DNA from: Panorpa germanica
Taxonomy: Eukaryota > Arthropoda > Insecta > Mecoptera > Panorpidae
Length of the DNA: 64,000 nt
Reading direction: 5' to 3'
Assembly: GCA_963678705.1 (NCBI GenBank)
Contig: CAVMBN010000220.1
Span: 1-64,000 of the forward strand
Part shown: in pieces, positions 1 to 64,000 of the stretch
How positions within the stretch are numbered: position 1 is the stretch's first letter
How the letters are laid out: each line of letters begins with the position of its first letter
The notes under the pieces: model-generated
What the model was told of the DNA's origin: nothing
The model's database searches: none
Seen by the model: only the letters and a program-made list of their open reading frames with translations
Translations under genes and position numbers: made by a program

Positions 1-1584
1 GTTATGCTATAAGACCGCGTGTACGCGTAAAAAAAAATTCGTTTTTAACACTGGTTTCCAACTGTCAAACTTATGTAAAAACACTTTGTTTAGAATAAAT
101 TAACACAAATTTAAAACAAACTTAAATACTTTTCGTTTGAAAAAGTATTAATATAATTTATTTAATTTTTTTCCATAATTAATTTCTCACTTTTAATCAC
201 TTTTTTTACCTAAAGTAGCAGGAGCCGATCACACACATAGTAGATAGGAACCACTTGTGTTGCAAAGCAATATTAACGTCCTTGTAAACCAATACGTAGG
301 TCTTCCTTTTTGTATTAAGTCTTATCTGTCTTGCCAGAGCTTATGCATATATGCATTCATCTCTTTGGCAATATATTTGGTATCGTCTCTAGACTTTTAT
401 CCTACAGCTGCATTAACTTTAAATCCTCGAAAGTTGTCGCATTATTTTAAAATCATCAAAATTTGATTTTTTCAGTTCTAGCGTAATTTGTACTTGAGTA
501 AGTGCATTAGTGATTTTTAAATCTAAAGGAATTGTCCCCAATATCACTTGCACCACTTCTGTAGATACAGTTCTGCAACAACGCGTCATCGTCAATAACA
601 TAGTTCTTTGCATGAAAGATCTGAAAGATTGATCCTGTAATACCATGTTGAAGCACAATGCACAACTATTAGCAAAAAAGCCCCCTTGTATAGTGTCGGC
701 ATAGTTGCCGAGTTTAAGCTTCATTCCGTCCTTGTGACACGCGCAAGGTGTGTTACAAGTTTATCATTCGTTGTTACTGTATTTGTTTCGTAGCTTTGTA
801 GCTTCAAGAAACTACAGATTTTATATATAGCAGGTCGAGAACGGCTTTCTAGGGTTTCTGTACTATTTGCACCGATAAGGATCACATTATCGTTGGCAAA
901 ACATATGTCTACAAACCTTTCGAGTGAGAAACACAGTTCTCGTCGAATACCATGTTCCAGAGCTCAGGCCCCATTACAGACCGCTGAGGACAACCTTTAG
1001 ATAGCTGCCTTTTCATGGAACGGTATTCGGTTTGTAAAATAATGTTCGACAATGAAAATAGTTCTCCATAGCGCAGTAGACGTACCTATAGGTTTTTGCC
1101 GGTCTAATTCTTTGAAGGTCACTTGGCCACCAGACATCAACAAAGGCACACTGAATTTCTATAAATATCTCATATACATACATGTACTTATGCCTACTTA
1201 CTTACCATTTGTTTGTTACCATTGAATGTTCATGAACGATCAATCACTATTTTTAAGAAAACCGCATATATTGTTCACTTAATCACTTATAACAATTAAT
1301 ACACTCTTATTATTATTTAAAACACGCATTTATATAAACTAATTCTTGTGTTTTAATATTATTTATAGTTAATGTTATTCGACTTACTTGATAGTGGGCG
1401 GCAACCTTTTGTCTTCCGTATATTTGTAGTGTTTATATAAGGTCTTCCTTATATATCTCTACAGATTTCTTGAATTTTAAACCACTTGATGTTTTAGCAC
1501 TAACACTAACCTAATTATTATCACTTTTTTTGTCTATCGCACTTATTAATGTCTTATATCAAACATCAAAGTTACAAATTTGAG
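1..1584. repeat. Satellite unit 1, subtype a1
   Basis: The unit starts at or within a base of the window edge and lacks one T of the usual TTATAAGACC start. It shares CATTATTTTAAAATC and other private variants with unit 10, nine units (14,266 bp) away. In its LINE part the text TCTACAAACC is one base shorter than the TCTACACAACC of other subtypes, a frameshift between RT motifs B and C. Confidence 0.93.
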
Positions 1585-1600
1585 GTTATGTTTATAAGTC

Positions 1601-1612
1601 CGCGTGTACGCG
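1601..1612. other. CpG-rich dyad CGCGT-GT-ACGCG (example, unit 2)
   Basis: A 5-bp inverted repeat with a 2-bp spacer at unit offset 16-27, present in nearly every unit and the most GC-rich spot of an AT-rich flank. Variant copies occur in units 12, 13, 24, 26, 30 and 37. Function unknown. Confidence 0.6.
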
Positions 1613-1927
1613 TAATGAATAATTCGTTTATAACACTGGTTTCCTACTGTCAAACTTTTGTAAAAACACTTTGTTTAAGGTAAATTAACACAAATTTAAA
1701 ACAAACTTAAATACTTTTCGTTTGAAAAAGTATTCATATAATTTATTTAATTTTTTTCCATAATTAATTTCTCACTTTTAATCACTTTTTTCACCTAAAG
1801 TAGCAGGAGCCGATCACACACATAGTAGATAGGAACCACTTGTGTTGCAAAGTAATATTAACGTCCTTGTAAACCAATACGTAAGTCTTCCTTTTTGTAT
1901 TAAGTCCCATCTGTCTTGCCAGAGCTT

Positions 1928-1941
1928 ATGCATATATGCAT
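1928..1941. other. 14-bp perfect palindrome ATGCATATATGCAT (example, unit 2)
   Basis: Present in a1, a2 and A units. C units have ATGCATATATGTAT, and B units lack 8 bp here (ATGCAT only). The loss explains the 1578-bp B unit length. It lies over the C-terminal part of the LINE remnant. Confidence 0.75.
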
Positions 1942-2774
1942 TCATCTCTTTGGCAATATATTTAGTATCGTCTCCAGACTTTTATCCTACAGCCGCATTT
2001 ACTTTAAATCCTCAAAATTTGTCGCATTAATTTTAAATCATCAAAATTTGATTTTTTCAGTTCTAGCGTAATTTGTACTTGAGTAAGTGCATGAGTGATT
2101 TTTAAATCTAAAGGAATTGTCCCCAATATCACTTGCACCACTTCTGTAGATACAGTTCTGCAACAACGCGTCATCGTCAATAACATAGTTCTTTGCATGG
2201 AAGATCTGGAAGATTGTTTCTGTAATACCATGCCGAAGCACAATACACAACTATTAGCATAAATGCCCTCTTGTATAGTGTCAACATAGTTGCCGAGATT
2301 AAGCTTCATTCCGTCCTTGTGACACGCGCAAGGTGTGTTACAAGTTTATCATTCGTTGTTACTGCATTTGTTTCGTAGCTTTGTAGCTTCAAGAAACTAC
2401 AGATTTTATATATAGCAGGTCGAGAACGGTTTTCTAGGGTTTCTGTACTATTTGCACCGATAAGGATCACATTATTGTTGGCAAAACATATGTCTACACA
2501 ACCTTTCGAGTGAGAAACACAGTTCTCGTCGAATACCATGTTCCAGAGCTCAGGCCCCATTACAGATCGCTGAGGACAACCTTTAGATAGTTGCCTTTTC
2601 ATAGAACGGTAATCGGTTTGTAAAATAATGTTCGACAATGAAAATAGTTCTCCATAGCGCAGTAGACGTACCTATAGGTTTTTGCCGGTCTAATTCTTTG
2701 AAGGTCACTTGGCCACCGGACATCAACAAAGGCACACTAAATTTCTATAAATATCTCATATACATACATGTACT

Positions 2775-3427
2775 TATGCCTATTTACTTACCATTTGTTT
2801 GTTACCATTGAATGTTCATGAACGATCAATCACTATGTTCAAGAAAACCGCATATATTGTTCACTTAATCACTTATAACAATTAATACACTCTCATTATT
2901 ATTTAAAACACGCATTTATATAAACTAATTCTTGTGTTTAAATATTATTTATAGTTAATGTTATTCGACTCACTTGATAGTGGGCGGCAACCTTTTGTCT
3001 TCCGTATATTTGTAGTGTTTATATGGGGTCTTCCTTATATATCTCTACAGATTTCTTGAATTTTAAACCACTTGATGTTTTAGCACTAACACTAACCTAA
3101 TTTTATCACTTTTTTTGTCTATCGCACTTATTATTGTCTTATATCAAACATCAAAGTTACAAGTTTGAGGTTATGCTTATAAGACCGCGTGTACGCGTAA
3201 TGAAAAATTCGTTTTTAACACTGGTTTCCAACTGTCAAACTTATGTAAAAACACTTTGTTTAGAATAAATTAACACAAATTTAAAACAAACTTGAATACT
3301 TTTCGTTTGAAAAAGTATTAATATAATTTATTTAATTTTTTTCCATAATTAGTTTCTCACTTTTAATCACTTTTTTCACCTAAAGTAGCAGGAGCCGATC
3401 ACACACATAGTAGATAGGAACCACTTG
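2775..3427. other. Non-LINE part of the satellite unit (example between units 2 and 3)
   Basis: About 650 bp per unit, AT-rich, with T-runs and no coding sense in any frame. Marks in it: the GTTCATGAAC dyad (2814-2823), the CACTAACACTAACCTAA run (3084-3100) and the CpG dyad of the next unit (3186-3197). I do not recognise its origin. It could be LINE untranslated sequence or an older unrelated repeat. Confidence 0.6.
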
Positions 3428-4754
3428 TGTTGCAAAGCAATATTAACGTCCTTGTAAACCAATACGTAGGTCTTCCTTTTTGTATTAAGTCCCATCTGTC
3501 TTGCCAGAGCTTATGCATATATGCATTCATCTCTTTGGCAATATATTTGGTATCGTCTCTAGACTTTTATCCTACAGCTGCATTAACTTTAAATCCTCGA
3601 AAGTTGTCGCATTAATTTAAAATCATCAAAATTTGATTTTTTCAGTTCTAGCGTAATTTGTACTTGAGTAAGTGCATTAGTGATTTTTAAATCTAAAGGA
3701 ATTGTCCCCAATATCACTTGCACCACTTCTGTAGATACAGTTCTGCAACAACGCGTCATCGTCAATAACATAGTTCTTTGCATGAAAGATCTGGAAGATT
3801 GATCCTGTAATACCATGTTGAAGCACAATGCACAACTATTAGCAAAAATGCCCCCTTGTATAGTGTCGGCATAGTTGCCGAGTTTAAGCTTCATTCCGTC
3901 CTTGTGACACGCGCAAGGTGTGTTACAAGTTTATCATTCGTTGTTACTGTATTTGTTTCGTAGGTTTGTAGCTTCAAGAAACTACAGATTTTATATATAG
4001 CAGGTCGAGAACGGCTTTCTAGGGTTTCTGTACTATTTGCACCGATAAGGATCACATTATCGTTGGCAAAACATATGTCTACAAACCTTTCGAGTGAGAA
4101 ACACAGTTCTCGTCGAATACCATGTTCCAGAGCTCAGGCCCCATTACAGACCGCTGAGGACAACCTTTAGATAGCTGCCTTTTCATGGAACGGTATTCGG
4201 TTTGTAAAATAATGTTCGACAATGAAAATAGTTCTCCATAGCGCAGTAGACGTACCTATAGGTTTTTGCCGGTCTAATTCTTTGAAGGTCACTTGGCCAC
4301 CAGACATCAACAAAGGCACACTGAATTTCTATAAATATCTCATATACATACATGTACTTATGCCTACTTACTTACCATTTGTTTGTTACCATTGAATGTT
4401 CATGAACGATCAATCACTATTTCTAAGAAAACCGCATATATTGTTCACTTAATCACTTATAACAATTAATACACTCTTATTATTATTTAAAACACGCATT
4501 TCTATAAACTAATTCTTGTGTTTTAATATTATTTATAGTTAATGTTATTCGACTTACTTGATAGTGGGCGGCAACCTTTTGTCTTCCGTATATTTGTAGT
4601 GTTTATATAAGGTCTTCCTTATATATCTCTACAGATTTCTTGAATTTTAAACCACTTGATGTTTTAGCACTAACACTAACCTAATTATTATCACTTTTTT
4701 TGTCTATCGCACTTATTAATGTCTTATATCAAACATCAAAGTTACAAATTTGAG
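3170..4754. repeat. Satellite unit 3, subtype a1
   Basis: Twin of units 1 and 5. With units 1, 2 and 4 it forms an a1-a2-a1-a2 pattern, a ~3.17-kb dimeric higher-order repeat. Confidence 0.93.
3428..4358 (-). pseudogene. LINE remnant in a1-type unit 3
   Basis: Same LINE piece as in unit 26. It carries a single-base loss at TCTACAAACC (near 4079-4088), which breaks the frame between motifs B and C. The post-RT frame (3589-3894) is open and reads CALCFNMVLQDQ, an a1-specific version. The same loss is in units 1, 5 and 10. Confidence 0.82.
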
Positions 4755-6340
4755 GTTATGTTTATAAGTCCGCGTGTACGCGTAATGAATAATTCGTTTA
4801 TAACACTGGTTTCCTACTGTCAAACTTTTGTAAAAACACTTTGTTTAAGGTAAATTAACACAAATTTAAAACAAACTTAAATACTTTTCGTTTGAAAAAG
4901 TATTCATATAATTTATTTAATTTTTTTCCATAATTAATTTCTCACTTTTAATCACTTTTTTCACCTAAAGTAGCAGGAGCCGATCACACACATAGTAGAT
5001 AGGAACCACTTGTGTTGCAAAGTAATATTAACGTCCTTGTAAACCAATACGTAAGTCTTCCTTTTTGTATTAAGTCCCATCTGTCTTGCCAGAGCTTATG
5101 CATATATGCATTCATCTCTTTGGCAATATATTTAGTATCGTCTCCAGACTTTTATCCTAGAGCCGCATTTACTTTAAATCCTCAAAATTTGTCGCATTAA
5201 TTTTAAATCATCAAAATTTGATTTTTTCAGTTCTAGCGTAATTTGTACTTGAGTAAGTGCATGAGTGATTTTTAAATCTAAAGGAATTGTCCCCAATATC
5301 ACTTGCACCACTTCTGTAGATACAGTTCTGCAACAACGCGTCATCGTCAATAACATAGTTCTTTGCATGGAAGATCTGGAAGATTGTTTCTGTAATACCA
5401 TGCCGAAGCACAATACACAACTATTAGCATAAATGCCCTCTTGTATAGTGTCAACATAGTTGCCGAGATTAAGCTTCATTCCGTCCTTGTGACACGCGCA
5501 AGGTGTGTTACAAGTTTATCATTCGTTGTTACTGCATTTGTTTCGTAGCTTTGTAGCTTCAAGAAACTACAGATTTTATATATAGCAGGTCGAGAACGGT
5601 TTTCTAGGGTTTCTGTACTATTTGCACCGATAAGGATCACATTATTGTTGGCAAAACATATGTCTACACAACCTTTCGAGTGAGAAACACAGTTCTCGTC
5701 GAATACCATGTTCCAGAGCTCAGGCCCCATTACAGATCGCTGAGGACAACCTTTAGATAGTTGCCTTTTCATAGAACGGTAATCGGTTTGTAAAATAATG
5801 TTCGACAATGAAAATAGTTCTCCATAGCGCAGTAGACGTACCTATAGGTTTTTGCCGGTCTAATTCTTTGAAGGTCACTTGGCCACCGGACATCAACAAA
5901 GGCACACTGAATTTCTATAAATATCTCATATACATACATGTACTTATGCCTATTTACTTACCATTTGTTTGTTACCATTGAATGTTCATGAACGATCAAT
6001 CACTATGTTCAAGAAAACCGCATATATTGTTCACTTAATCACTTATAACAATTAATACACTCTCATTATTATTTAAAACACGCATTTATATAAACTAATT
6101 CTTGTGTTTAAATATTATTTATAGTTAATGTTATTCGACTCACTTGATAGTGGGCGGCAACCTTTTGTCTTCCGTATATTTGTAGTGTTTATATGGGGTC
6201 TTCCTTATATATCTCTACAGATTTCTTGAATTTTAAACCACTTGATGTTTTAGCACTAACACTAACCTAATTATTATCACTTTTTTTGTCTATCGCACTT
6301 ATTATTGTCTTATATCAAACATCAAAGTTACAAGTTTGAG
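4755..6340. repeat. Satellite unit 4, subtype a2
   Basis: Twin of unit 2; I see only a few single-base differences. It closes the second a1-a2 dimer. Confidence 0.93.
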
Positions 6341-7925
6341 GTTATGCTTATAAGACCGCGTGTACGCGTAATGAAAAATTCGTTTTTAACACTGGTTTCC
6401 AACTGTCAAACTTATGTAAAAACACTTTGTTTAGAATAAATTAACACAAATTTAAAACAAACTTGAATACTTTTCGTTTGAAAAAGTATTAATATAATTT
6501 ATTTAATTTTTTTCCATAATTAATTTCTCACTTTTAATCACTTTTTTCACCTAAAGTAGCAGGAGCCGATCACACACATAGTAGATAGGAACCACTTGTG
6601 TTGCAAAGCAATATTAACGTCCTTGTAAACCAATACGTAGGTCTTCCTTTTTGTATTAAGTCCCATCTGTCTTGCCAGAGCTTATGCATATATGCATTCA
6701 TCTCTTTGGCAATATATTTGGTATCGTCTCTAGACTTTTATCCTACAGCTGCATTAACTTTAAATCCTCGAAAGTTGTCGCATTAATTTAAAATCATCAA
6801 AATTTGATTTTTTCAGTTCTAGCGTAATTTGTACTTGAGTAAGTGCATTAGTGATTTTTAAATCTAAAGGAATTGTCCCCAATATCACTTGCACCACTTC
6901 TGTAGATACAGTTCTGCAACAACGCGTCATCGTCAATAACATAGTTCTTTGCATGAAAGATCTGGAAGATTGATCCTGTAATACCATGTTGAAGCACAAT
7001 GCACAACTATTAGCAAAAATGCCCCCTTGTATAGTGTCGGCATAGTTGCCGAGTTTAAGCTTCATTCCGTCCTTGTGACACGCGCAAGGTGTGTTACAAG
7101 TTTATCATTCGTTGTTACTGTATTTGTTTCGTAGCTTTGTAGCTTCAAGAAACTACAGATTTTATATATAGCAGGTCGAGAACGGCTTTCTAGGGTTTCT
7201 GTACTATTTGCACCGATAAGGATCACATTATCGTTGGCAAAACATATGTCTACAAACCTTTCGAGTGAGAAACACAGTTCTCGTCGAATACCATGTTCCA
7301 GAGCTCAGGCCCCATTACAGATCGCTGAGGACAACCTTTAGATAGCTGCCTTTTCATGGAACGGTATTCGGTTTGTAAAATAATGTTCGACAATGAAAAT
7401 AGTTCTCCATAGCGCAGTAGACGTACCTATAGGTTTTTGCCGGTCTAATTCTTTGAAGGTCACTTGGCCACCGGACATCAACAAAGGCACACTGAATTTC
7501 TATAAATATCTCATATACATACTTGTACTTATGCCTACTTACTTACCATTTGTTTGTTACCATTAAATGTTCATGAACGATCAATCACTATTTCCAAGAA
7601 AACCGCATATATTGTTCACTTAATCACTTATAACAATTAATACACTCTCATTATTATTTAAAACACGCATTTATATAAACTAATTCTTGTGTTTTAATAT
7701 TATTTATAGTTAATGTTATTCGACTTACTTGATAGTGGGCGGCAACCTTTTGTCTTCCGTATATTTGTAGTGTTTATATGAGGTCTTCCTTATATATCTC
7801 TACAGATTTCTTGAATTTTAAACCACTTGATGTTTTAGCACTAACACTAACCTAATTATTATCACTTTTTTTGTCTATCGCACTTATTATTGTCTTATAT
7901 CAAACATCAAAGTTACAAATTTGAG
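6341..7925. repeat. Satellite unit 5, subtype a1
   Basis: The left two thirds match units 1 and 3. The right third carries ACTTGTACTTATGCC and CTCTCATTATT, variants that also occur in subtype A, so it may be mosaic. Confidence 0.92.
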
Positions 7926-9507
7926 GTTATGCTTATAAGACCGCGTGTACGCGTAATGAAAAATTCGTTTTTAACACTGGTTTCCAACTGTCAAACTTAT
8001 GTAAAAACACTTTGTTTAGAATAAATTAACACAAATTTAAAACAAACTTGAATACTTTTCGTTTGAAAAAGTATTAATATAATTTATTTAATTTTTTTCC
8101 ATAATTAATTTCTCACTTTTAATCACTTTTTTCACCTAAAGTAGCAGGAGCCGATCACACACATAGTAGATAGGAACCACTTGTGTTGCAAAGCAATATT
8201 AACGTCCTTGTAAACCAATACGTAGGTCTTCCTTTTTGTATTAAGTCCCATCTGTTTTGCCAGAGCTTATGCATATATGCATTCATCTCTTTGGCAATAT
8301 ATTTGGTATCGTCTCTAGACTTTTATCCTACAGCTGCATTAACTTTAAATCCTCGAAAGTTGTCGCATTAATTTAAAATCATCAAAATTTGATTTTTTCA
8401 GTTCTAGCGTAATTTGTACTTGAGTAAGTGCATTAGTGATTTTTAAATCTAAAGGAATTGTCCCCAATATCACTTGCACTACTTCTGTAGATACAGTTCT
8501 GCAACAACGCGTCATCGTCAATAACATAGTTCTTTGCATGAAAGATCAGGAAGATTGATCCTGTAATACCATGCCGAAGCACAATACACAACTATTAGCA
8601 TAAATGCCTACTTGTATAGTGTCGGCATAGTTGCCGAGTTTAAGCTTCATTCCGTCCTTGTGACACGCGCCAGGTGTGTTACAAGTTTATCATTCGTTGT
8701 TACTGTATTTGTTTCGTAGCTTTGTAGCTTCAAGAAACTACAGATTTTATATATAGCAGGTCGAGAACGGCTTTCTAGGGTTTCTGTACTATTTGCACCG
8801 ATAAGGATCACAATATCGTTGGCAAAACATATGTCTACACAACCTTTCGAGTGAGAAACACAGTTCTCGTCGAATACCATGTTTCAGAGCTCAGGCCCCA
8901 TTACAGATCGCTGAGGACAACGTTTAGATAGTTGCCTTTTCATGGAACGGTAATCGGTTTGTAAAATAATGTTCGACAATGAAAATAGTTCTCCATAGCG
9001 CAGTAGACGTACCTATAGGTTTTTGCCGGTCTAATTCTTTGAAGGTCACTTGGCCACCGGACATCAACAAAGGCACACCGAATTTCTATAAATATCTCAT
9101 ATACATACTTGTACTTATGCCTACTTAGCATTTGTTTGTTACTATTGAATGTTCATGAACGATCAATCACTCTTTCTAAGAAAACCGCATATATTGTTCA
9201 CTTAATCACTTATAACAATTAATACACTCTCATTATTATTTAAAACACGCATTTATATAAACTAATTCTTGTGTTTTAATATTATTTATAGTTAATGTTA
9301 TTCGACTTACTTGATAGTGGGCGGCAACCTTTTGTCTTCCGTATATTTGTAGTGTTTATATGAGGTCTTCCTTATATATCTCTACAGATTTCTTGAATTT
9401 TAAACTACTTGATGTTTTAGCACTAACACTAACCTAATTATTATCACTTTTTTTGTCTATCGCACTTATTAATGTCTTATATTAAACATCAAAGTTACAA
9501 ATTTGAG
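7926..9507. repeat. Satellite unit 6, a1/A chimera (1582 bp)
   Basis: The left part is a1. From about 8540 it carries the TCTACACAACC form and other A-type bases. It is four bases short around 9126 (CTACTTAGCATT in place of CTACTTACTTACCATT). The RT motif B Trp codon is a stop here, as in subtype B. Confidence 0.92.
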
Positions 9508-11093
9508 GTTATGTTTAAAAGACCGCGTGTACGCGTAATGAAAAATTCGTTTTTAACACTGGTTTCCAACTGTCAAACTTTTGTAAAAACACTTTGTTTA
9601 GGGTAAATTAAAACAAATTTAAAACAAACTTAAATAGTTTTCGTTTGAAAAAGTATTCATATAATTTATTTAATTTTTTTCCATAATTAATTTCTCACTT
9701 TTAATCACTTTTTTCACCTAAAGTAGCAGGAGCCGATCACACACATAGTAGATAGGAACCACTTGTGTTGCAAAGCAATATTAACGTCCTTGTAAACCAA
9801 TACGTAGGTCTTCCTTTTTGTATTAAGTCCCATCTGTCTTGCCAGAGCTTATGCATATATGCATTCATCTCTTTGGCAATATATTTGGTATCGTCTCCAG
9901 ACTTTTATCCTACTGCCGCATTAACTTTAAATCCTCGAAATTTGTCGCATTAATTTTAAATCATCAAAATTTGATTTTTTCAGTTCTAGCGTAATTTGTA
10001 CTTGAGTAAGTGCATGAGTGATTTTTAAATCTAAAGGAATTGTCCCCAATATCACTTGCACCACTTCTGTAGATACAGTTCTGCAACAACGCGTCATGGT
10101 CAATAACATAGTTCTTTGCATGGAAGATCTGGAAGATTGATCCTGTAATTATATGCCGAAGCACAATACACAACTATTAGCATAAATGCCCCCTTGTATA
10201 GTGTCGGCATAGTTGCCGAGTTTAAGCTTTATTCCGTCCTTGTGACACGCGCAAGGTGTGTTACAAGTTTATCATTCGTTCTTACTGTATTTGTTTCGTA
10301 GCTTTGTAGCTTTAAGAAACAACAGATTTTATATATAGCAGGTCAAGAACGGCTTTCTAGGGTTTCTGTACTATTTGCACCGATAAGGATCACATTATCG
10401 TTGGCAAAACATATGTCTACACAACCTTTCGAGTGAGAAACACAGTTCTCGTCGAATAGCATGTTCCAGAGCTCAGGCCCCATTACAGATCGCTAAGGAC
10501 AACCTTTAGATAGTTGCCTTTTCATGGAACGGTAATCGGTTTGTAAAATAATGTTCGACAATGAAAATAGTTGTCCATAGCGCAGTAGACGTACCTATAG
10601 GTTTTTGCCGGTCTAATTCTTTGAAGGTCACTTGGACACCGGACATCAACAAAGGCACACTGAATTTCTATAAATATCTCATATACATACATGTACTTAT
10701 GCCTACTTACTTACCATTTGTTTGTTACCATTGAATGTTCATGAACGATCAATCACTATTTCCAAGAAAACCGCATATATTGTTCACTTAATCACTTATA
10801 ACAATTAATACACTCTCATTATTATTTAAAACACGCATTTATATAAACTAATTCTTGTGTTTTAATATTATTTATAGTTAATGTTATTCGACTTGTTTGA
10901 TAGTGGGCGGCAACCTTTTGTCTTCCGTATATTTGTAGTGTTTATATGAGGTCTTCCTTATATATCTCTACAGATTTCTTGAATTTTAAACCACTTGATG
11001 TTTTAGCACTAACACTAACCTAATTATTATCACTTTTTTTGTCTATCGCACTTATTATTGTCTTATATTAAACATCAAAGTTACAAATTTGAG
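9508..11093. repeat. Satellite unit 7, divergent A-like unit
   Basis: Private variants include TACTGCCGCATT and TGTAATTATATGCC. It carries CGCTAAGGA, which gives a stop in LINE motif B, as in subtype C. Confidence 0.92.
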
Positions 11094-12679
11094 GTTATGC
11101 TTATAAGACCGCGTGTACGCGTAATGAAAAATTCGTTTTTAACACTGGTTTCCAACTGTCAAACTTATGTAAAAACACTTTGTTTAGAATAAATTAACAC
11201 AAATTTAAAACAAACTTGAATACTTTTCGTTTGAAAAAGTATTAATATAATTTATTTAATTTTTTTCCATAATTAATTTCTCACTTTTAATCACTTTTTT
11301 CACCTAAAGTAGCAGGAGCCGATCACACACATAGTAGATAGGAACCACTTGTGTTGCAAAGCAATATTAACGTCCTTGTAAACCAATACGTAGGTCTTCC
11401 TTTTTGTATTAAGTCCCATCTGTCTTGCCAGAGCTTATGCATATATGCATTCATCTCTTTGGCAATATATTTGGTATCGTCTCTAGACTTTTATCCTACA
11501 GCTGCATTAACTTTAAATCCTCGAAAGTTGTCGCATTAATTTAAAATCATCAAAATTTGATTTTTTCAGTTCTAGCGTAATTTGTACTTGAGTAAGTGCA
11601 TTAGTGATTTTTAAATCTAAAGGAATTGTCCCCAATATCACTTGCACCACTTCTGTAGATACAGTTCTGCAACAACGCGTCATCGTCAATAACATAGTTC
11701 TTTGCATGAAAGATCAGGAAGATTGATCCTGTAATACCATGCCAAAGCACAATACACAACTATTAGCATAAATGCCTACTTGTATAGTGTCGGCATAGTT
11801 GCCGAGTTTAAGCTTCATTCCGTCCTTGTGACACGCGCCAGGTGTGTTACAAGTTTATCATTCGTTGTTACTGTATTTGTTTCGTAGCTTTGTAGCTTCA
11901 AGAAACTACAGATTTTATATATAGCAGGTCGAGAACGGCTTTCTAGGGTTTCTGTACTATTTGCACTGATAAGGATCACATTATCGTTGGCAAAACATAT
12001 GTCTACACAACCTTTCGAGTGAGAAACACAGTTCTCGTCGAATACCATGTTCCAGAGCTCAGGCCCCATTACAGATCGCTGAGGACAACCTTTAGATAGT
12101 TGCCTTTTCATGGAACGGTAATCGGTTTGTAAAATAATGTTCGACAATGAAAATAGTTCTCCATAGCGCAGTAGACGTACCTATAGGTTTTTGCCGGTCT
12201 AATTCTTTAAAGGTCACTTGGCCACCGGACATCAACAAAGGCACACTGAATTTCTATAAATATCTCATATACATACATGTACTTATGCCTACTTACTTAC
12301 TATTTGTTTGTTACCATTGAATGTTCATGAACGATCAATCACTATTTCCAAGAAAACCGCATATATTGTTCACTTAATCACTTATAACAATTAATACACT
12401 CTCATTATTATTTAAAACACGCATTTATATAAACTAATTTTTGTGTTTTAATATTATTTATAGTTAATGTTATTCGACTTACTTGATAGTGGGCGGCAAC
12501 CTTTTGTCTTCCGTATATTTGTAGTGTTTAAATGAGGTCTTCCTTATATATCTCTACAGATTTCTTGAATTTTAAACCACTTGATGTTTTAGCACTAACA
12601 CTAACCTAATTATTATCACTTTTTTTGTCTATCGCACTTAATAATGTCTTATATCAAACATCAAAGTTACAAATTTAAG
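11094..12679. repeat. Satellite unit 8, a1/A chimera
   Basis: The left end is a1 and the right is A-type. GCACTGATAAGG (near 11964) is shared with units 31 and 35, the copia-bearing units. A 110-codon LINE frame survives at 11815-12147. Confidence 0.92.
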
Positions 12680-48717: not shown

Positions 48718-48798
48718 GCCAAATTAGCAATTGGCATTTGGCAAATTAGCAAATTAAGCAAGAATCAAATAATAGCAACTGCGAGCATTGTAAATAAC

Positions 48799-52491: not shown

Positions 52492-54077
52492 GTTATGTTT
52501 ATAAGACCGCGTGTACGCGTAATGAAAAATTCGTTTTTAACACTGGTTTCCAACTGTCAAACTTTTGTAAAAACACTTTGTTTAGGGTAAATTAACACAA
52601 ATTTAAAACAAACTTAATCACTTTTCGTTTGAAAATGTATTCATATAATTTATTAAATTTTTTTCCATAATTAATTTCTCACTTTTATTCACTTTTTTCG
52701 CCTAAAGTAGCAGGAGCCGATCACACACATAGTAGATAGGAACCACTTGTGTTGCAAAGCAATATTAACGTCCTTGTAAACCAATACGTAGGTCTTCCTT
52801 TTTGTATTAAGTCCCATCTGTCTTGCCAGAGCTTATGCATATATGCATTCATCTCTTTGGCAATATATTTGGTATCGTCTCCAGACTTTTATCCTACAGC
52901 CGCATTAACTTTAAATCCTCGAAATTTGTCGCAATAATTTTAAATCATTGAAATTTGATTTTTTCAGTTCTAGCGTAATTTGTACTTGAGTAAGTGCATG
53001 AGTGATTTTTAAATCTAAAGGAATTGTCCCCAATATCACTTGCACCACTTCTGTAGATACAGTTCTGCAACAACGCGTCATCGTCAATAACATAGTTCTT
53101 TGCATGGAAGATCTGGAAGATTAATCCTGTAATACCATGCCGAAGCACAATACACAACTATTAGCATAAATGCCCCCTTGTATAGTGTCGGCATAGTTGC
53201 CGAGTTTAAGCTTCATTCCGTCCTTGTGACACGCGCAAGGTGTGTTACAAGTTTATCATTCGTTATTACTGTATTTGTTTCGTAGCTTTGTAGCTTCAAG
53301 AAACTACAGATTTTATATATAGCAGGTCGAGAACGGCTTTCTAGGGTTTCTGTACTATTTGCACCGATAAGGATCACATTATCGTTGGCAAAACATATGC
53401 CTACACAACCTTTCGAGTGAGAAACACAGTTCTCGTCGAATACCATGTTCCAGAGCTCAGGCCCCATTACAGATCGCTGAGGACAACCTTTAGATAGTTG
53501 CCTTTTCATGGAACGGTAATCGGTTTGTAAAATAATGTTCGACAATGAAAATAGTTCTCCATAGCGCAGTAGACGTACCTATAGGTTTTTGCCGGTCTAA
53601 TTCTTTGAAGGTCACTTGGCCACCGGACATCAACAAAGGCACACTGAATTTTTATAAATTTCTCATTATCATACTTGTACTTATGCCTACTTACTTACCA
53701 TTTGTTTGTTACCATTGAATGTTCATGAACGATCAATCACTATTTCCAAGAAAACCGCATATATTGTTCACTTAATCACTTATAACAATTAATACACTCT
53801 CATTATTATTTAAAACACGCATTTATATAAACTAATTCTTGTGTTTTAATATTATTTATAGTAAATGTTATTCGACTTACTTGATAGTGAGCGGCAACCT
53901 TTTGTCTTCCGTATATTTGTAGTGTTTATATGAGGTCTTCCTTATATATCTCTACAGATTTCTTGAATTTTAAACCACTTGATGTTTTAGCACTAACACT
54001 AACCTAATTATTATCACTTTTTTTGTCTATCGCACTTATTAATGTCTTATATCAAACATCAAAGTTACAAATTTGAG
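52492..54077. repeat. Satellite unit 32, A unit with C-like left end
   Basis: ACTTAATCACTTTTCG, TTTATTAAATTTTTTTCC and CTTTTATTCACTTTTTTCGCC in the left 250 bp match units 19 and 21. The rest is A-type. At this point the similarity to unit 36 drops, so the right edge of the 9.75-kb duplication is close to the unit start. Confidence 0.92.
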
Positions 54078-55663
54078 GTTATGTCTATAAGACCGCGTGT
54101 ACGCGTAATGAAAAATTCGTTTTTAACACTGGTTTCCAACTGTCAAACTTTTGTAAAAACACTTTGTTTAGGGTAAATTAACACAAATTTAAAACAAACT
54201 TAAATACTTTTCGTTTGAAAAAGTATTCATATAATTTATTTAATTTTTTTCCATAATTAATTTCTCATTTTTAATCACTTTTTTCGCCTAAAGTAGCAGG
54301 AGCCGATCACACACATAGTAGATAGGAACCACTTGTGTTGCAAAGCAATATTAACGTCCTTGTAAACCAATACGTAGGTCTTCCTTTTTGTATTAAGTCC
54401 CATCTGTCTTGCCAGAGATTATGCATATATGCATTCATCTCTTTGGCAATATATTTGGTATCGTCTCCAGACTTTTATCCTACAGCCGCATTAACTTTAA
54501 ATCCTTGAAATTTGTCGCATTAATTTTAAATAATCAAAATTTGATTTTTTCAGTTCTAGCGTAATTTGTACTTGAGTAAGTGCATGAGTGATTTTACAAT
54601 CTAAAGGAATTGTCCTTAATATCACTTGCACCACTTCTGTAGATACAGTTCTGCAACAACGCGTCATCGTCAATAACATAGTTCTTTGCATGGAAGATCT
54701 GGAAGATTAATCCTGTAATACCATGCCGAAGCACAATACACAACTATTAGCATAAATGCCCCCTTGTATAGTGTCGGCATAGTTGCCGAGTTTAAGCTTC
54801 ATTCCGTCCTTGTGACACGCGCAAGGTGTGTTACAAGTTTATCATTCGTTATTACTGTATTTGTTTCGTAGTTTTGTAGCTTCAAGAAACTACGGATTTT
54901 ATATATAGCAGGTCGAGAACGGCTTTCTAGGGTTTCTGTACTATTTGCACCGATAAGGATCACATTATCGTTGGCAAAACATATGTCTACACAACCTTTC
55001 GAGTGAGAAACACAGTTCTCGTCGAATATTATGTTCCAGAGCTCAGGTTTCATTACAGATCGCTGAGGACAACCTTTTGATAGTTGCCTTTTCATGGAAC
55101 GGTAATCGGTTTGTAAAATAATGTTCGACAATGAAAATAGTTCTCCATAGCGCAGAAGACGTACCTATAGGTTTTTGCCGGTCTAATTCTTTGAAGGTCA
55201 CTTGGCCACCGGACATCAACAAAGGCACACTGAACTTCTATAAATATCTCATATATATACTTGTACTTATGCCTACTTACTTACCATTTGTTTGTTACCA
55301 TTGAATGTTCGTAAACGATCAATCACTATTTCCAAGAAAACCGCATATATTGTTCACTTAATCACTTATAACAATTAATACACTCTTATTATTATTTAAA
55401 ACACGAATTTATATAAACTAATTCTTGTGTTTTAATATTATTTATAGTTATTGTTATTCGACTTACTTGATAGTGGGCGGCAACCTTTTGTCTTCCGTAT
55501 ATTTGTAGTGTGTATATGAGGTCTTCCTTATATATCTCTACAGATTTCTTAAATTTTAAACCACTTGATGTTTTAGCACTAACACTAACCTAATTATTAT
55601 CAATTTTTTTGTCTATCGCACTTACTAATGTCTTATATCAAACATCAAAGGTACAAATTTGAG
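54078..55663. repeat. Satellite unit 33; left edge of the second duplicated segment
   Basis: The right half is paired with unit 29 at 9750 bp. The left half has its own variants (GTCTATAAGACC, CAGAGATTATGC, GATTTTACAATC). In LINE motif B the plus strand reads CAGGTTTCATTAC, so VMGPE is changed to VMKPE. Confidence 0.92.
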
Positions 55664-56778
55664 GTTATGTTTATAAGACCGCGTGTACGCGTAATGAAAA
55701 ATTCGTTTTTAACACTGGTTTCCAACTGTCAAACTTTTGTAAAAATACTTTGTTTAGGGTAAATTAACACAAATTTAAAACAAACTTAAATACTTTTCGT
55801 TTAAAAAAGTATTCATATAATTTATTTAATTTTTTTCCATAATTAATTTCTCACTTTTAATCACTTTTTTCACCTAAAGTAGCAGGAGCCGATCACACAT
55901 ATAGTAGATAGGAACCACTTGTGTTGCAAAGCAATATTAACGTCCTTGTAAACCAATACGTAGGTCTTCCTTTTTGTATTAAGTCCCATCTGTCTTGCCA
56001 GAGCTTATGCATATATGCATTCATCTCTTTGGCAATATATTTGGTATCGTCTCCAGACTTTTATCCTACAGCTGCATTAACTTTAAATCCTCGAAATTTG
56101 TCGCATTAATTTTAAATCGTCAAAATTTGATTTTTTCAGTTCTAGCGTAATTTGTATTTGAGTAAGTGCATGAGTGATTTTTAAATCTAAAGGAATTGTC
56201 CCCAATATCACTTGCACCACTTCTGTAGATAAAGTTCTGCAACAACGCGTCATCGTTAATAACATAGTTCTTTGCATGGAAGATCTGGAAGATTGATCCT
56301 GTAATACCATGCCGAAGCACAATACACAACTATTAGCATAACAGCTCCCTTGTATAGTGTCGGCATAGTTGCCGAGTTCAAGCTTCATTCCGTCCTTGTG
56401 ACACGCGCAAGGTGTGTTACAAGTTTATCATTTTGTATTTATTGTTGTTGTTTATTGTTTATCATTGTTCACTTAATCACTTATAACAATTAATACACTC
56501 TCATTATTATTTAAAACACGCATTTATATAAACTAATTCTTGTGTTTTAATATTATTTATAGTTAATGTTATTCTTCTTACTTGATAGTGGGCGGCAACC
56601 TTTTATCTTCCGTATATTTGTAGTGTTTATATGAGGTCTTCCTTATATATCTCTACAGATTTCTTGAATTTTAAACCACTTGATGTTTTAGCACTAACAC
56701 TAACCTAATTATTATCACTTTTTTTGTCTATCGCACTTATTAATGTCTTATATCAAACATTAAAGTTACAAATTTGAG
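55664..56778. repeat. Satellite unit 34, shortened to 1115 bp
   Basis: Exact counterpart of unit 30 at 9750 bp, with the same ~470-bp loss and filler. Its left end has the ordinary CCGCGTGTACGCG, whereas unit 30 has CCGAGTGTACGCG, so the two have been converted differently since duplication. Confidence 0.95.
56433..56464. other. Filler at the short-unit junction, copy 2
   Basis: Same filler bases as at 46683-46714. Because such junctions are essentially unique events, this shows that the two short units descend from one rearrangement. Confidence 0.72.
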
Positions 56779-57051
56779 GTTATGTTTATAAGACCGCGTG
56801 TACGCGTAATGAAAAATTCGTTTTTAAAACTGGTTTCCAACTGTCAAACTTTTGTAAAAACACTTTGTTTAGGGTAAATTAACACAAATTTAAAACAAAC
56901 TTAAATACTTTTCGTTTGAAAAAGTATTCATATAATTTATTTAATTTTTTTCCATAATTAATTTCTCACTTTTAATCACTTTTTTCACCTAAAGTAGCAG
57001 GAGCCGATTACACACATAGTAGATAGGAACCACTTGTGTTGCAAAGCAATA
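56779..57051. repeat. Satellite unit 35, left part
   Basis: Same 273-bp stub as at 47029, ending GCAAAGCAATA before the LTR. GAGCCGATTACACAC is shared with unit 31 and differs from the usual GATCACACAC. Confidence 0.95.
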
Positions 57052-57261
57052 TGTTGGATTTAAATTTAGCGCCCTCTCGGTATTGACACTATTGTATCTT
57101 TCTTTCTACACACGGTAATACTGTAGTTGATACTATACTCTGTAATACCGTCCTACTATGTAGTTCTATACTCTGTGACATCATAACTCATGTGTACATC
57201 TAATTAAATATAATAAACCTGATTAATATTAATTAATAGTTTATCTCTGCTAAATATAACA
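57052..57261 (+). repeat. copia LTR, copy 2 (210 bp)
   Basis: TGTTGGATTT to TAAATATAACA, followed by the same primer-binding site at 57262-57277. I see one base difference from the LTR at 47302. This is divergence since duplication, not since insertion. Confidence 0.88.
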
Positions 57262-57417
57262 GGTTATCGGCCCAGATAAACCTAGAGACGTTTAATGTGT
57301 GTTTTTCGGAAAAGTGGATAAAGACTTTTAGTGTGGTGAACATAACCTTAAAAAAAACGTGGCTGTTGAAACTGTTTCTGTTCTTCTTTGTGTATAAAGT
57401 GTTCTCAACGAATAAAA

Positions 57418-58467
57418 ATGGCATCGAATAATTCACTGGCATTAATCGAGAAGTTAACCGGCCGTGAAAACTATTCGACTTGGCAATTCGCAGTGAAAAC
57501 ATACCTACAACACGAAGAATTATGGGATTGTATTGAGGTTAACCCGGCGGCACCCACAGATTCAAAACGTGATACAAAAGCGAAAACAAAGTTAATTCTT
57601 CTGGTTGATCCGATCAATTACGTTTATATCCAAGAGGAAAACACGGCCAAAGGAGTTTGGGACAAATTGGCTGCAGTGTTCGACGACTCAGGACTTACAC
57701 GCCGAGTTGGTCTGCTACGTGATTTATGTAACACATCGTTAAGTGGATGTCAAAGTATAGAAGAGTATGTGAGCAAAATTATGTCAACTGCTCACAAGCT
57801 GCGCAACATTGGCTTTAAAGTGGACGATGAGTGGCTCGGGACATTGCTGCTCTCCGGTCTGCCCGAATCATATCAACCAATGATTATTGCGATCGAAAGC
57901 TCAGGTACAAAAATAACTGCAGACGGTGTTAAAGCAAAACTATTGCAAGATGTTAGAAATTCAGACAACAAAACAACGGCGTTTGCTGTCAACAAGAAGT
58001 TTTATAACAACTCTGTAAACAAGAAGTTCTACAAGGGTCCGAGATGTTATTCCTGCAATCAATATGGACATAAACGCTCTGAATGCAACAAATACAAAAC
58101 CATGAACAAGACACAGAAACCTAGCTCTTCTTATGCTGCTGTGTTTGTTGCATCATCCCACTATGGTGATGCTTGGTACATAGACTCCGGTGCTTCGGCA
58201 CATATGACTAAGACCAAGAATATAATTGTAAAGGAAACTACCCCTATAACAAAGAACATTCGTGTTGCTGATAACAAAGTGTTATCTGTGCAAAGCTCAG
58301 GAGATGTCAGCTTAAACATTTATGACCAAAACGGGCAAGAGAATAAGATTCTGTTCACAAATGTCTTATATGTTCCTGAATTGGCAACTAATCTGATATC
58401 TGTAAGCCAAATTATTAAAAATGGAGGCCAAGTGAAATTTGATAACTCAGGCTGTGTGATCATGTAA
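57418..58467 (+). pseudogene. copia gag and protease region, copy 2
   Basis: Counterpart of 47668-48717, with the zinc knuckle (CYSCNQYGHKRSEC) and the protease DSGA motif still readable. It is part of a broken element. Confidence 0.9.
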
Positions 58468-58548
58468 GCCAAATTAGCAATTGGCATTTGGCAAATTAGC
58501 AAATTAAGCAAGAATCAAATAATAGCAACTGCGAGCATTGTAAATAAC

Positions 58549-60976
58549 ATGTACCGGCTGAACATGCCTGAAAGCCTTGCGCACATGTCTAGTGTTGAAC
58601 ATGAAAAAGATGCTTTTTCCTGGCACCAGAGGATGGGACATCTTAATTTCCAAACTTTGAAAAAATTGTCTGATAACACAGAGCATTTAACTTTCTCAGG
58701 AAATACAGAAAATCTGAAATGCATAACTTGTAAAGAAGGAAAGCAGACACGGTTACCTTTTAAAAGTGATGGATTAAGAGTCACCAAACACCTAGAACTG
58801 GTTCATTCTGACGTATGTGGACCAATGGAAACCCAGTCTCTCGGTGGGAGCAGATATTTTTTAACCTTCCTAGATGAATATTTCAAGAAGATTTCAGTAT
58901 ACTTTCTTCACAACAAGTCTGAAGTGCTCAGTAAATTCAAAGAATTCAAGCAAGAAGTTGAAAATCAATCGGATGCTCATATAAAGGTTCTTCGTACAGA
59001 CAACGGACTTGAATACGATAACAAATCCTTCTCTGATTACCTGAAAGGTGCCGGAATCATTCATCAGACCACCACACCATACACGCCTGAACAGAATGGG
59101 ACTGCGGAACGTATTAATCGGACACTGGTTGAAAAAGCGAAGTGCATGCTACTCAACGCTGGTCTGCCGAAGTTGTATTGGGCAGATGCAATACACACTG
59201 CTGCTTACATCATCAATCTTTTTCCAACCAAATCCTTAGCTTTCAAGACTCCTATGGAAATCTGGTCTGGACGCAAACCAAATGTTAATCATATGCGTAT
59301 ATTTGGCTGCGAAGCAATAGTTCATCTACCTAAAGAAAAACGCAGAAAATGGGATCCAAAGGCTCAAAGAATGATCTTCATCGGATACTGCGACCATACA
59401 AAAGGATACAGATTCACATTACCAAATACTAGAAAGGTAATAAAGAGCAGAGATGCTACATTTCTTGAATCCTCAGTGAAAAGAGATTTTGTTTCGGTAG
59501 AATTGAATGAGACAGAAACTGAAACTGACACAACAAATACAAGAAAAGAAGGTTCCTGTAACATATGAAGAAGCAGTACATTCAACAAATAAAAATGAAT
59601 GGAAAAAGTCAATCAATGAAGAACTTAATGCTCATAAGAAAAATGAAACCTGGACATTGATAGAAAAACCTCCAAATGCCAAAGTGATCGGTAGCAAATG
59701 GGTGTTCCGAATAAAAGAAGAGTCAACGGGTCCACGGTTCAAATCAAGACTTTGTGCTAAGGGATTTGCACAAACCGCAGGTATTGACTACACAGAAACC
59801 TTCGCTCCGACTGTAAGGTATGATTCAATACGTTTATTACTTTCCATGGCTGTTCAAAATAAACTTAAAATCTTACAACTTGATGTAAAAACTGCATTTT
59901 TATATGGTGAACTTGAAGAGACTATATTTATGACTCCGCCTGAAAGTCTATCCTGTGAAAACTACATGGTATGCAAGCTCAACAAGTCGCTGTATGGTTT
60001 AAAGCAAGCCCCCACAAGCTGGAATAAGAAATTTGACTTAATATTAAAGAAATTTGGCTTCATCAACAGCAAAGCTGATCAATGTGTGTATGTTGGTCAT
60101 GTCAAGAATGAGAAATGTTATCTTTGCCTGTATGTGGATGATGGCCTACTATTTTCTAAAACTGAATCCACTCTGAAAGAAATAACCAAGGAACTACAAT
60201 CTGTGCTGGAAGTAAAAATATTGAACACCCCAAGTAATTTTGTGGGCATGCAAATTGAGATAGTTAGCAACGGTATTTTTATACATTAGACCAAGTATGT
60301 AGAACAACTGTAAGAGAAGTTTAACATGACTGATGCTAACCCGAACACTGTTCTAGTGGACCCCCATGTAAAGCTACAAAAGGAAGTTGGAGAACCAGAG
60401 AAAAACTATCCTTATAGAGAAGCTGTAGGTTCTCTTATGCATCTGGCTACAGTCAGTCGACCAGAAATTATGTTTGCCGTAAGCCTGGTAAGTCGATTTT
60501 TAAGTTGCTATAACAAATCACACTGGAATGCTGTCACGAAGATCTTCAAGTACCTAAAGGATACTAAAGATTATGGCCTGAACTACTCATCAACATCAGA
60601 GCCACCAGCTGTTACTGGTTATAGTGATGCTGATTATGCAAACGATATTGATACAAGACGCTCAGTTACTGGCTACGTCTTCATAAAAAATGGTGCTGCT
60701 GTAACATGGTCAAGCCAACGCCAACAGACGGTTGCTCTGTCAACAACAGAAGCTGAATTTATGGCCGCCTGTGCTGCAACAAAAGAAGCTATGTGGATAA
60801 AGCAAGTGTTAAGTAATATTGGTGAATATAAACAAGACACTATGTGTCTACATTTAGACAATCAAAGTGCCATCAGTGTAATTAAGAATATAAATTTTCA
60901 TAAAAGATGTAAATATATTGATATTAAGTATCACTTCATAGAAGAAAAATATTCTCAAAAGATTATAGATTCACAT
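58549..60976 (+). pseudogene. copia integrase, reverse transcriptase and RNase H region, copy 2
   Basis: Counterpart of the copy 1 region. The HHCC and DDE integrase motifs, LQLDVKTAFLYGELEE, the YVDD box and the RNase H STTEAEF motif can still be recognised. The region is broken in several places and somewhat shorter than in copy 1. Confidence 0.9.
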
Positions 60977-61997
60977 TACAGTTCTGCAACAACGCGTCAT
61001 CGTAAATAACATAGTTCTTTGCATGGAAGATCTGGAAGATTGATCCTGTAATACCATGCCGAAGCACAATACACAACTATTAGCATAAATGCCCTCTTGT
61101 ATAGTGTCGGCATAGTTGCCGAGTTTAAGCTTCATTCCGTCCTTGTGACACGCGCAAGGTGTGTTACAAGTTTATCATTCGTTGTTACTGTATTTGTTTC
61201 GTAGCTTTGTAGCTTCAAGAAACTACAGATTTTATATATAGCAGGTCGAGAACGGCTTTCTAGGGTTTCTGTACTATTTGCACTGATAAGGATCACATTA
61301 TCGTTGGCAAAACATATGTCTACACAACCTTTCGAGTTAGAAACACAGTTCCTCGTCGAATACCATGTTCCAGAGCTCAGGCCCCATTACAGATCGCTGA
61401 GGACAACCTTTAGATAGTTGCCTTTTCATGGAACGGTAATCGGTTTGTAAAATAATGTTCGACAATGACAATAGTTCTCCATAGCGCAGTAGACGTACCT
61501 ATAGGTTTTTGCCGGTCTAATTCTTTGAAGGTCACTTGGCCACCGGACATCAACAAAGGCACACTGAATTTCTATAAATATCTCATATACATACTTGTAC
61601 TTATGCCTACTTACTTACCATTTGTTTGTTACCATTGAATGTTCATGAACGATAAATCACTATTTCCAAGAAAACCGCATATATTGTTTACTTAATCACT
61701 TATAACAATTAATACACTCTCATTATTATTTAAAACACGCATTTATATAAACTAATTCTTGTGTTTTAATATTATTTATAGTTAATGTTATTCGACTTAC
61801 TTGATAGTGGGCGGCAACCTTTTGTCTTCCGTATATTTGTAGTGTTTATATGAGGTCTTCCTTATATATCTCTACAGATTTCTTGAATTTTAAACCACTT
61901 GATGTTTTAGCACTAACACTAACCTAATTATTATCACTTTTTTTGTCTATCGCACTTAATAATGTCTTATATCAAACATCAAAGTTACAAATTTGAG
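60977..61997. repeat. Satellite unit 35, right part
   Basis: Counterpart of 51472-52491, sharing GCACTGATAAGG and CTTAATAATGTC. Private change: GAGTTAGAAACACAG with an extra C in GTTCCTCGTCG. Confidence 0.94.
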
Positions 61998-63581
61998 GTT
62001 ATGTTTATAAGACCGCGTGTACGCGTAATGAAAAATTCGATTTTGACACTGGTTTCCAACTGTCAAACTTTTGTAAGAACACTTTGTTTAGCGTAAATTA
62101 ACACAAATTTAAAACAAACTTAAATACTTTTCGTTTAAAAAGTATTCATATAATTTATTTAATTTTTTTCCATAATTAATTTCTCACTTTTAATCACTTT
62201 CTTCACCTAAAGTAGCAGGAGCCGATCACACACATAGTAGATAGGAACCACTTGTGTTGCAAAGCAATATTAACGTCCTTGTAAACCAATACGTAGGTCT
62301 TCCTTTTTGTATTAAGTCCCATCTGTCTTGCCAGAGCTTATGCATATATGCATTCATCTATTGGCAATATATTTGGTATCGTCTCCAGACTTTTATCCTA
62401 CAGCCGCATTAACTTTAAATCCTCGAAATTTGTCGCATTAATTTTAAATCATCAAAATTTGATTTTTTCAGTTCTAGCGTAATTTGTATTTGAGTAAGTG
62501 CATGAGTGATTTTTAAATCTAAAGGAATTGTCCCGAATATCACTTGCACCACTTCTGTAGATACAGTTCTGCAACAACGCGTCATCGTCAATAACATAGT
62601 TCTTTGCATGGAAGATCTGGAAGATTGATCCTGTAATACCATGCCGAAGCACAATACACAACTATTAGCATAAATGGCCCCTTGTATAGTGTCGGCATAG
62701 TTGCCGAGTTTAAGCTTTATCCCGTCCTTGTGACACGCGCAAGGTGTGTTACAAGTTGATCATTCGTTGTTACTGTATTTGTTTCGTAGCTTTGTAGCTT
62801 TAAAAAACTACAGATTTTATATATAGCAGGTCGAGAACGGCTTTCTAGGGTTTCTGTACTATTTGCACCAATAAGGATCACATTATCGTTGGCAAAACAT
62901 ATGTCTACACAACCTTTCGAGTGAGAAACACAGTTCTCGTCGAATACCATGTTCCAGAGCTCAGGCCCCATTACAGATCGCTGAGGACAACCTTTAGATA
63001 GTTGCCTTTTTATGGAACGGTAATCGGTTTGTAAAATAATGTTCGACAATGAAAATAGTTCTCCATAGCGCAGTAGACGGACCTATAGGTTTTTGCCGGT
63101 CTAATTCTTTGAAGGTCACTTGGCCACCGGACATCAACAAAGGCACACTGAATTTCTATAAATATCTCATATACATACTTGTACTTATGCCTACTTACTT
63201 ACCATTTGTTTGTTACCATTGAATGTCCATGAACGATCAATCACTATTTCCAAGAAAACCGCATATATTGTTCACTTAATCACTTATAACAATTAATACA
63301 CTCTCATTATTATTTAAAACACGCATTTATATAAACTAATTCTTGTGTTTTAATATTATTTATAGTTAATGTTATTCGACTTACTTGATAGTGGGCGGCA
63401 ACCTTTTGTCTTCCGTATATTTGTAGTGTTTATATGAGGTCTTCCTTATATATATCTACAGATTTCTTGAATTTTAAACCACTTAATGTTTTAGCACTAA
63501 CACTAACCTAATTATTATCTTTTTTTTTGTCTATCGCACTTATAAATGTCTTATATCAAACATCAAAGTTACAAATTTCAG
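61998..63581. repeat. Satellite unit 36, subtype A
   Basis: Full unit with private variants ATTCGATTTTGACAC and CATCTATTGGC. The 110-codon LINE frame (62717-63049) is open. Confidence 0.92.
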
Positions 63582-64000
63582 GTTATATTTATAAGACCGC
63601 TTGTACGCGTAATGAAAATTTCGTTTTTAACACTGGTTTCCAACTGTCAAACTTTTGTAAAAACACTTTGTTTAGGGTAAATTAACACAAATTTAAAACA
63701 AACTTAAATACTTTTTGTTTGAAAAAGTATTCATATAATTTATTTAATTTTTTTCCATAATTAATTTCTCACTTTTAATCTTTTTTTTCACCTAAAGTAG
63801 CAGGAGCCGATCACACACATAGTAGATAGGAACCACTTGTGTTGCAAAGCAATATTAACGTCTTTGTAAACCAAAACGTAGGTCTTCCTTTTTGTATTAA
63901 GTCCCATCTGTCTTGCCAGAGCTTATGCATATATGCATTTATATCTTTGGCAATATATTTGGTATCGTCTCCAGACTTTTATCCTACAGCCGCATTAACT
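63582..64000. repeat. Satellite unit 37, partial
   Basis: First 419 bp of a unit, cut by the window edge. The dyad reads CGCTTGTACGCG. Confidence 0.93.

Follow-up and report, generated by a model that had tools for sequence, protein, structure and literature searches.

Satellites whose repeat unit stems from a long interspersed nuclear element (LINE) are already known, as the available portions of PMC9659126 and PMC6947457 describe. The common cetacean satellite has such a monomer, taken from the 3′-terminal part of L1 (same two sources), and the available portion of PMC9659126 adds PROsat of Phodopus roborovskii and Pvc20 of the harbour seal, both with LINE-1 open reading frame 2 (ORF2) sequence, the chicken HinfI (SCR1) satellite, with partial ORF2 and the 3′ untranslated region of CR1, and 18HT of the Drosophila melanogaster Y chromosome, which derives from the non-long-terminal-repeat elements HeT-A/TART and lies in a centromeric region. 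Here we describe a satellite of ~1.58 kb from Panorpa germanica, found in a window of 64,000 nucleotides (positions 1 to 64,000 of contig CAVMBN010000220.1, assembly GCA_963678705.1). We consider it probable that its monomer arose from an internal piece of an R1-like LINE, was multiplied by DNA recombination, and persists as a passive, decaying relic.

This unit differs from the cetacean satellite in that it holds an internal piece of ORF2 without either end of the element, and from an R1-like LINE. PROsat and Pvc20 go back to mammalian L1, and PROsat contains only a small ORF2 region, compared with ~59% of the Panorpa unit; HinfI differs by its CR1 3′ untranslated region and by its LINE family, and 18HT comes from the 3′ noncoding region of telomeric elements (all according to the available portion of PMC9659126). 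An original prediction, made from the letters of this stretch alone, had called a satellite built from a dead LINE fragment unusual, which is fair, yet precedents exist. No R1-derived satellite appeared in the titles or abstract openings listed by the literature searches, which were largely without subscription journals, and we claim no priority.

The satellite array and its unit

The window is the start of contig C235 of the assembly (464 Mb, 249 contigs). One unit, at 39572-41157, tiles nearly all of it head to tail, with copies 95.4 to 97.3% identical by BLAST. Counting as full units only BLAST matches that run from unit position 3 or lower to 1582 or higher, and leaving out partial units, we found 32 of them, 1576 to 1586 bp long, with a pairwise identity of 95.8 to 99.9% (mean, 97.06%). 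To these were added 31 full units from other loci, a biased sample in that they were taken as best matches, which gave a set of 63. The mean identity between window units and those of other loci was 96.36%, and among the other loci it was 96.41%. From 15.8 to 36.4 kb, units of a 1576-bp type partly take turns with units of a 1582-bp type; a strong spacing of 3162 bp marks a higher-order dimer. Searches against Rfam returned nothing in the window at gathering scores. The layout of the array and of the example unit is as follows.

1..47302, plus strand: satellite array, 29 full units and then a rearranged unit (BLAST, unit extraction)
15850..36400, plus strand: partly alternating 1576/1582-bp unit types, higher-order dimers of ~3.16 kb
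39572..41157, plus strand: example unit (unit position 1 = 39572), 95.4-97.3% identical to other full units
39572..39820, no strand assigned: second stretch of the non-LINE part, unit 1-249 (unit extraction)
39821..40761, minus strand: LINE-derived part, with reverse transcriptase (RT) motifs A, B, and C, the post-RT block, and the C-terminal W..RW..KGR.TYW; homologous to ORF2 of the LINE copy L078 (consensus blocks, 81.7%/73.6%; the boundaries, transferred from the consensus, are approximate)
39981..40037, plus strand: tandem duplication of 29 bp within the LINE-derived part
40334..40369, minus strand: unit 763-798, where ~160 bp of the parent LINE have been deleted internally (position mapped from the consensus)
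40762..41157, no strand assigned: first stretch of the non-LINE part, unit ~1191-1586, without a match in the parent LINE sequences fetched

Homology of the unit to a LINE

The prediction had read ~60% of the unit as minus-strand LINE ORF2, shared by at least 30 units, and this was borne out at the DNA level. The LINE-derived part covers unit positions ~250 to 1190, that is, 941 of 1584 bp (59%). The satellite consensus aligned with L078, a LINE copy of the same genome, in two collinear blocks (unit 798-1190, 81.7% identity, 383 bits; unit 250-763, 73.6%, 334 bits), while the best score among 200 shuffles was 32.8 bits. All 63 units, the 32 of the window included, matched L078 in at least two blocks at an E value below 1e-20. 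The margin over the shuffles is decisive for regarding the homology as real, and by it the repeat is a LINE-derived satellite.

Protein-level comparisons gave results for and against. In blastx, one unit matched R1-type LINEs of its own genome with E values down to 1.7e-10 over motifs B to C, and a second collinear block covered the RTVSTE region. A frameshift-tolerant alignment of the unit with L069, one of these R1-type LINEs, scored 140, against a mean of 49 (standard deviation, 5.2; maximum, 66) for 100 dinucleotide shuffles. The RT profile search that the prediction had proposed came out both ways: among five unspliced frames of satellite copies from outside the window, that of L061 passed the Pfam RVT_1 cut-off (E = 3.6e-7; 30.5 bits; cut-off, 29.6), two matched below it, and two had no match, while a hand-spliced composite protein of the window unit stayed below it (E = 0.0039). 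Two consensus frames taken alone gave nothing in Pfam at an E value of 0.01, and no RT was found in PDB searches, that with the composite included. The unspliced frames and the DNA homology superseded the composite as evidence.

The captured piece is internal, as predicted: homology begins just upstream of motif A and ends just after W..RW..KGR.TYW..ALQHKWF, and neither end of the LINE is present. A frameshifted match to a C-terminal motif contributed little past its first block, and it is the DNA alignment that extends the homology to ALQHKWF. The unit has no endonuclease (EN), no N-terminal part of the RT, and no C-terminal end; being internal and with mutated motifs, the fragment shows neither the complete ends nor the intact catalytic motifs of a mobile LINE. 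Relative to the parent LINE it is without ~160 bp internally, has lost another ~16 bp, and is ~30 bp longer at the 29-bp tandem duplication. The stretch with this duplication is complete in 62 of the 63 units and one base short in the remaining one (80 versus 81 bp), and in the copy L086 29 bp are missing from the BLAST match there. Conservation within the unit is highest at the edge (~245-300) between the second non-LINE stretch and the LINE part. For the non-LINE part, Pfam gave nothing convincing, the sole weak match being to squalene epoxidase (E = 0.077). That these ~643 bp are a decayed LINE 3′ end was considered and rejected: there was no signal above shuffles against L067 or L070 and no DNA match to L080 to L084.

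A parent LINE family in the same genome

The search for a parent LINE, also proposed in the prediction, led to the family of L078 and L081. L078 (contig C8, 2.587 Mb) has an open EN-RT frame of 1004 codons with a CCHC-bearing frame upstream, and on its 3′ side it passes into a different LINE. The related copies L082 to L084 are farther from the satellite (71.5 to 73.2% over the first block). Among 150 scored matches, the portion of the RT that lies upstream of the captured piece recurred outside the arrays at nine places with 74 to 100% protein identity, one of them being that of the query itself, and in four shorter matches with 65 to 69%. Other candidates were discarded: 30 loci inspected among the best 150 RVT_1 places resembled, by eye, Jockey, I, and gypsy elements, none of them close, and the R1-type LINEs L067 to L072 are genuine relatives but distant. 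LINEs of the L077-to-L079 type are crowded at C8 0.1-3.5 Mb, C5 8.25 Mb, and C1 1.8-2.2 Mb, and some are nested, one of the L079 type adjoining the broken 3′ end of L078.

R1-clade LINEs are defined by an EN, an RT, and a C-terminal domain, with a CCHC-bearing ORF1 and no RNase H, while LOA LINEs carry RNase H. The parent family appears to share with R1, TRAS, and SART the CCHC ORF1, the EN, the RT, and a C-terminal domain with a GHG motif. Pfam found Exo_endo_phos_2, RVT_1, and zf-CCHC in the fetched parent parts and no RNase H in them at an E value of 0.01. The GHG motif was present in 3/3 of L077 to L079, 6/6 of L067 to L072, and 0/30 of the other RT loci; a stricter C-terminal pattern was present in 1/3, 0/6, and 0/30, respectively. 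In a maximum-likelihood tree of 16 RT rows (own-genome LINEs only, labels assigned by eye, midpoint root, with a long-branch warning), three satellite frames grouped together (100/100) and were joined successively by L078/L084 (94/93), L077 (98/97), and L079 (94/98). Domain order, the GHG motif, and the clade definition are what support an R1-like parent. Of the R1/LOA grouping originally proposed, the LOA side appears less likely because Pfam shows no RNase H in the fetched parent parts, and the R1 side is supported by domains and C-terminal motif, the tree link being weak.

States of decay and the order of events

The prediction placed the decay of the fragment before or early in amplification. 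In all 63 units, Arg replaces the Gly of CPQG and Asn replaces the first Asp of FADD. Motif A reads AFVD in 30 of the 32 window units and AFDN in none, yet AFDN occurs in 12 of the 31 units from elsewhere. A frameshift between motifs A and B is present in 32/32 window units and in 14/31 elsewhere, and in a separate frame test the A-B interval was open in 18 of the 31. Among the copies read, FADD is retained only in those from C1 at 8.8 Mb (L074, L085, and L086), which lie outside the set of 63. A divergent satellite type with a unit of 1184 bp (L073, C1:11716700-11719300, at 11.7 Mb), 82 to 90% identical to the main type and with a different internal deletion, lacks the A-B frameshift and reads FAND.

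Because AFDN, an open A-B frame, or FADD persists in other arrays, several disabling changes of the window appear to postdate the origin of the unit, and the decay is by this reading partly older and partly younger than the amplification. The Arg after CPQ and the ~160-bp deletion look like older changes, in keeping with the prediction; the changes of motif A, of the A-B frame, and of FADD are not fixed elsewhere and go against it. The order so deduced could be obscured by parallel changes, reversions, and gene conversion.

Two further kinds of copy were seen. The monomers of L085 and L086 (C1, 8.82 Mb) measure ~1.75 to 1.78 kb, contain a 191-bp internal duplication, and read FADD; the idea that the 1776- and 1748-bp monomers at C1 8.8 Mb are undeleted ancestors was ruled out by this duplication. 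In L076 (C201:7400-10600), an open frame of 500 codons leads from what remains of the satellite's RT into sequence judged by eye to be like gag and protease of a different retroelement, which is probably a chance fusion at an insertion.

Abundance and location

A 30-mer from the non-LINE part had 4325 + 4828 = 9153 matches in the genome at two or fewer mismatches, and its reversed control had 0; the long head-to-tail arrays of a homogeneous unit and these counts make the repeat satellite DNA. At ~1.58 kb per unit it would amount to ~14.5 Mb, or ~3.1% of 464 Mb, a rough figure given monomers of 1.18 to 1.78 kb. Contigs C1 to C21 were taken as chromosome-scale, and among the matches listed the satellite lies on seven of them, at these places.

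C1: 8.81-8.82 and 11.25-14.84 Mb
C3: 17.72-18.31 Mb
C6: 18.40 Mb
C8: 4.49-4.53 Mb
C10: 0.43-0.54 Mb (likely also 0.07 Mb)
C11: 0.57-0.97 Mb
C15: 1.35-1.52 Mb

Many small contigs hold it as well. On C1 its orientation flips near 12.95 and 14.2 Mb. With C1 counted as one block (8.81-14.84 Mb), the 60 R1-type C-termini (of 150) that fall on the seven contigs lie a median of 1.85 Mb from a block, compared with 6.11 Mb for a uniform distribution (0/5000 as low). Surroundings rich in transposable elements (TEs) fit pericentromeres, though they are no proof, and the blocks most likely represent pericentromeric heterochromatin; a centromeric role of the satellite is possible. Runs of 35 bases of TTAGG or TCAGG were absent from the whole genome, and the telomeres may have a different repeat or be missing from the assembly.

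Copia elements and block duplication

Two Copia-type elements interrupt the array. Both contain gag, integrase, and RVT_2 domains by Pfam, share a 3′ loss, and lie 9750 bp apart, and a segment of this length bearing the truncated element has been duplicated as a whole, occurring twice in the window. The 5′ satellite-Copia junction was found genome-wide at these two sites only, at one mismatch or fewer. The TGTTGG start of the copy at 47303 is read as the start of a 5′ long terminal repeat (LTR), and a second LTR of that element (47303-51474) was not found. A rearranged unit (45914-47026 and 55664-56776), in which unit ~790-1271 is replaced by ~10 bp, precedes each copy.

45914..46703: unit 1-789 of the rearranged unit before the first Copia copy
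46714..47026: unit 1272-1584 of the same
47029..47302: unit 1-274
47303..51474, plus strand: Copia-type element inside a satellite unit; unit 275-569 and the element's 3′ end missing (Pfam)
51475..57052, plus strand: satellite between the two Copia copies, containing a rearranged unit at 55664-57052 (BLAST)
57053..60979, plus strand: second Copia copy, 245 bp shorter, same junctions, 98.8-99.3% identical to the first
60980..64000, plus strand: satellite up to the window end (BLAST)

Origin of the satellite

In the scenario that we favour, an internal piece of one R1-like LINE copy, from before motif A to W..RW..KGR.TYW, would have been joined to ~643 bp of AT-rich DNA to form a tandem unit. 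DNA recombination, in the form of unequal exchange, gene conversion, and perhaps rolling-circle copying, would then have amplified this unit and kept its copies alike, without the LINE's own target-primed reverse transcription. Recombination as the motor is what we infer; the copying of whole blocks, namely the higher-order dimers and the duplicated 9750-bp segment, supports it. The RT frame would be a passive relic whose decay went on after amplification. Target-primed reverse transcription alone would not yield such a unit because both LINE ends are missing, and with most catalytic motifs gone as well, the LINE machinery was presumably unnecessary.

The alternative that deserves most weight, although we think it rather unlikely, is that a satellite of ~640 bp came first, that a LINE copy landed in it and was trimmed, and that the older unit gave way to the composite. 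None of the parent LINE sequence fetched has a match in the non-LINE part, and TEs do insert into these arrays, as the Copia element did; but no LINE-free unit was present among the loci read, the 1184-bp type included, these loci having been chosen for their similarity to the entire unit or its LINE-derived portion, with no search made for LINE-free arrays. Growth of the array by repeated target-primed insertion is very improbable. R1 tandem arrays and the telomeric LINEs TRAS and SART are models for such growth, and the parent is R1-like, in a group with site-specific members; against this stand the two missing ends, the single internal deletion common to main-type units, the Arg of CPQG in 63/63 units, and the copying of dimers and 9.75-kb segments as blocks. 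Even less credible is the retention of the RT fragment for a coding function, as a domesticated protein. Open frames of up to 203 to 214 amino acids do occur in some copies outside the window, but there is none of at least 150 amino acids within it, and the substitutions in CPQG and FADD are universal in the set of 63. Polymorphic sites are, moreover, spread over the codon positions (53/36/50 of 121 sites in frame A, 45/49/47 of 113 in frame B, and 29/28/14 of 62 in the motif A frame), and the third-position excess expected under coding selection is seen in none of the three. As to an assembly artefact or chance resemblance, misassembly of unplaced satellite-rich contigs can occur, but the unit occurs in many contigs, the largest ones included, and the homology lies more than 300 bits above shuffles, so that this explanation has next to no weight.

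Several observations nevertheless tell against parts of our account of a passive relic of an R1-like LINE confined to pericentromeric blocks. The second positions of frame A are the least polymorphic (36 of 121, versus 53 and 50), a pattern that the other two frames do not have. Support is weak (72/72) for the fork that unites the L077-to-L079 group with the R1-type L067 to L072 to the exclusion of Jockey and I, and most of the parent's domain set (EN, RT, CCHC, and no RNase H) is also found in Jockey-type LINEs. Because of that fork the clade name of the parent is unsure, and we hold the proposed origin to be probable rather than certain. On C1 the satellite lies in at least two separate stretches, and the confinement to blocks concerns 7 of the 21 chromosome-scale contigs (C1 to C21) among the matches listed. 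Finally, 50 RVT_1 places (of the best 150) also lie near the blocks (median, 2.97 Mb; 3/5000), so that closeness of TEs is unspecific.

Implications

The window satellite is an addition to the known LINE-derived satellites, and the presence of the parent family makes it well documented. To our knowledge, the source of a satellite is seldom traceable; here the source family, less decayed subfamilies (arrays with AFDN or FADD and the 1184-bp type), and the derived array are all found in one assembly, and their co-occurrence permits direct tests of the birth of a satellite from a mobile element. The case also shows that a scheme with decay first and amplification afterwards is correct only in part. 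What was a dead piece of a rare element is now a repeat present in thousands of copies. It may even be, though on the sequence at hand we lean slightly the other way, that this internal RT piece, from a rare R1-like LINE, became the centromeric or pericentromeric satellite of the karyotype, with the parent family at ~1/1000 of its copy number. If the centromeric reading is true, one genome would let us read how a centromeric satellite was born and how it decayed step by step.

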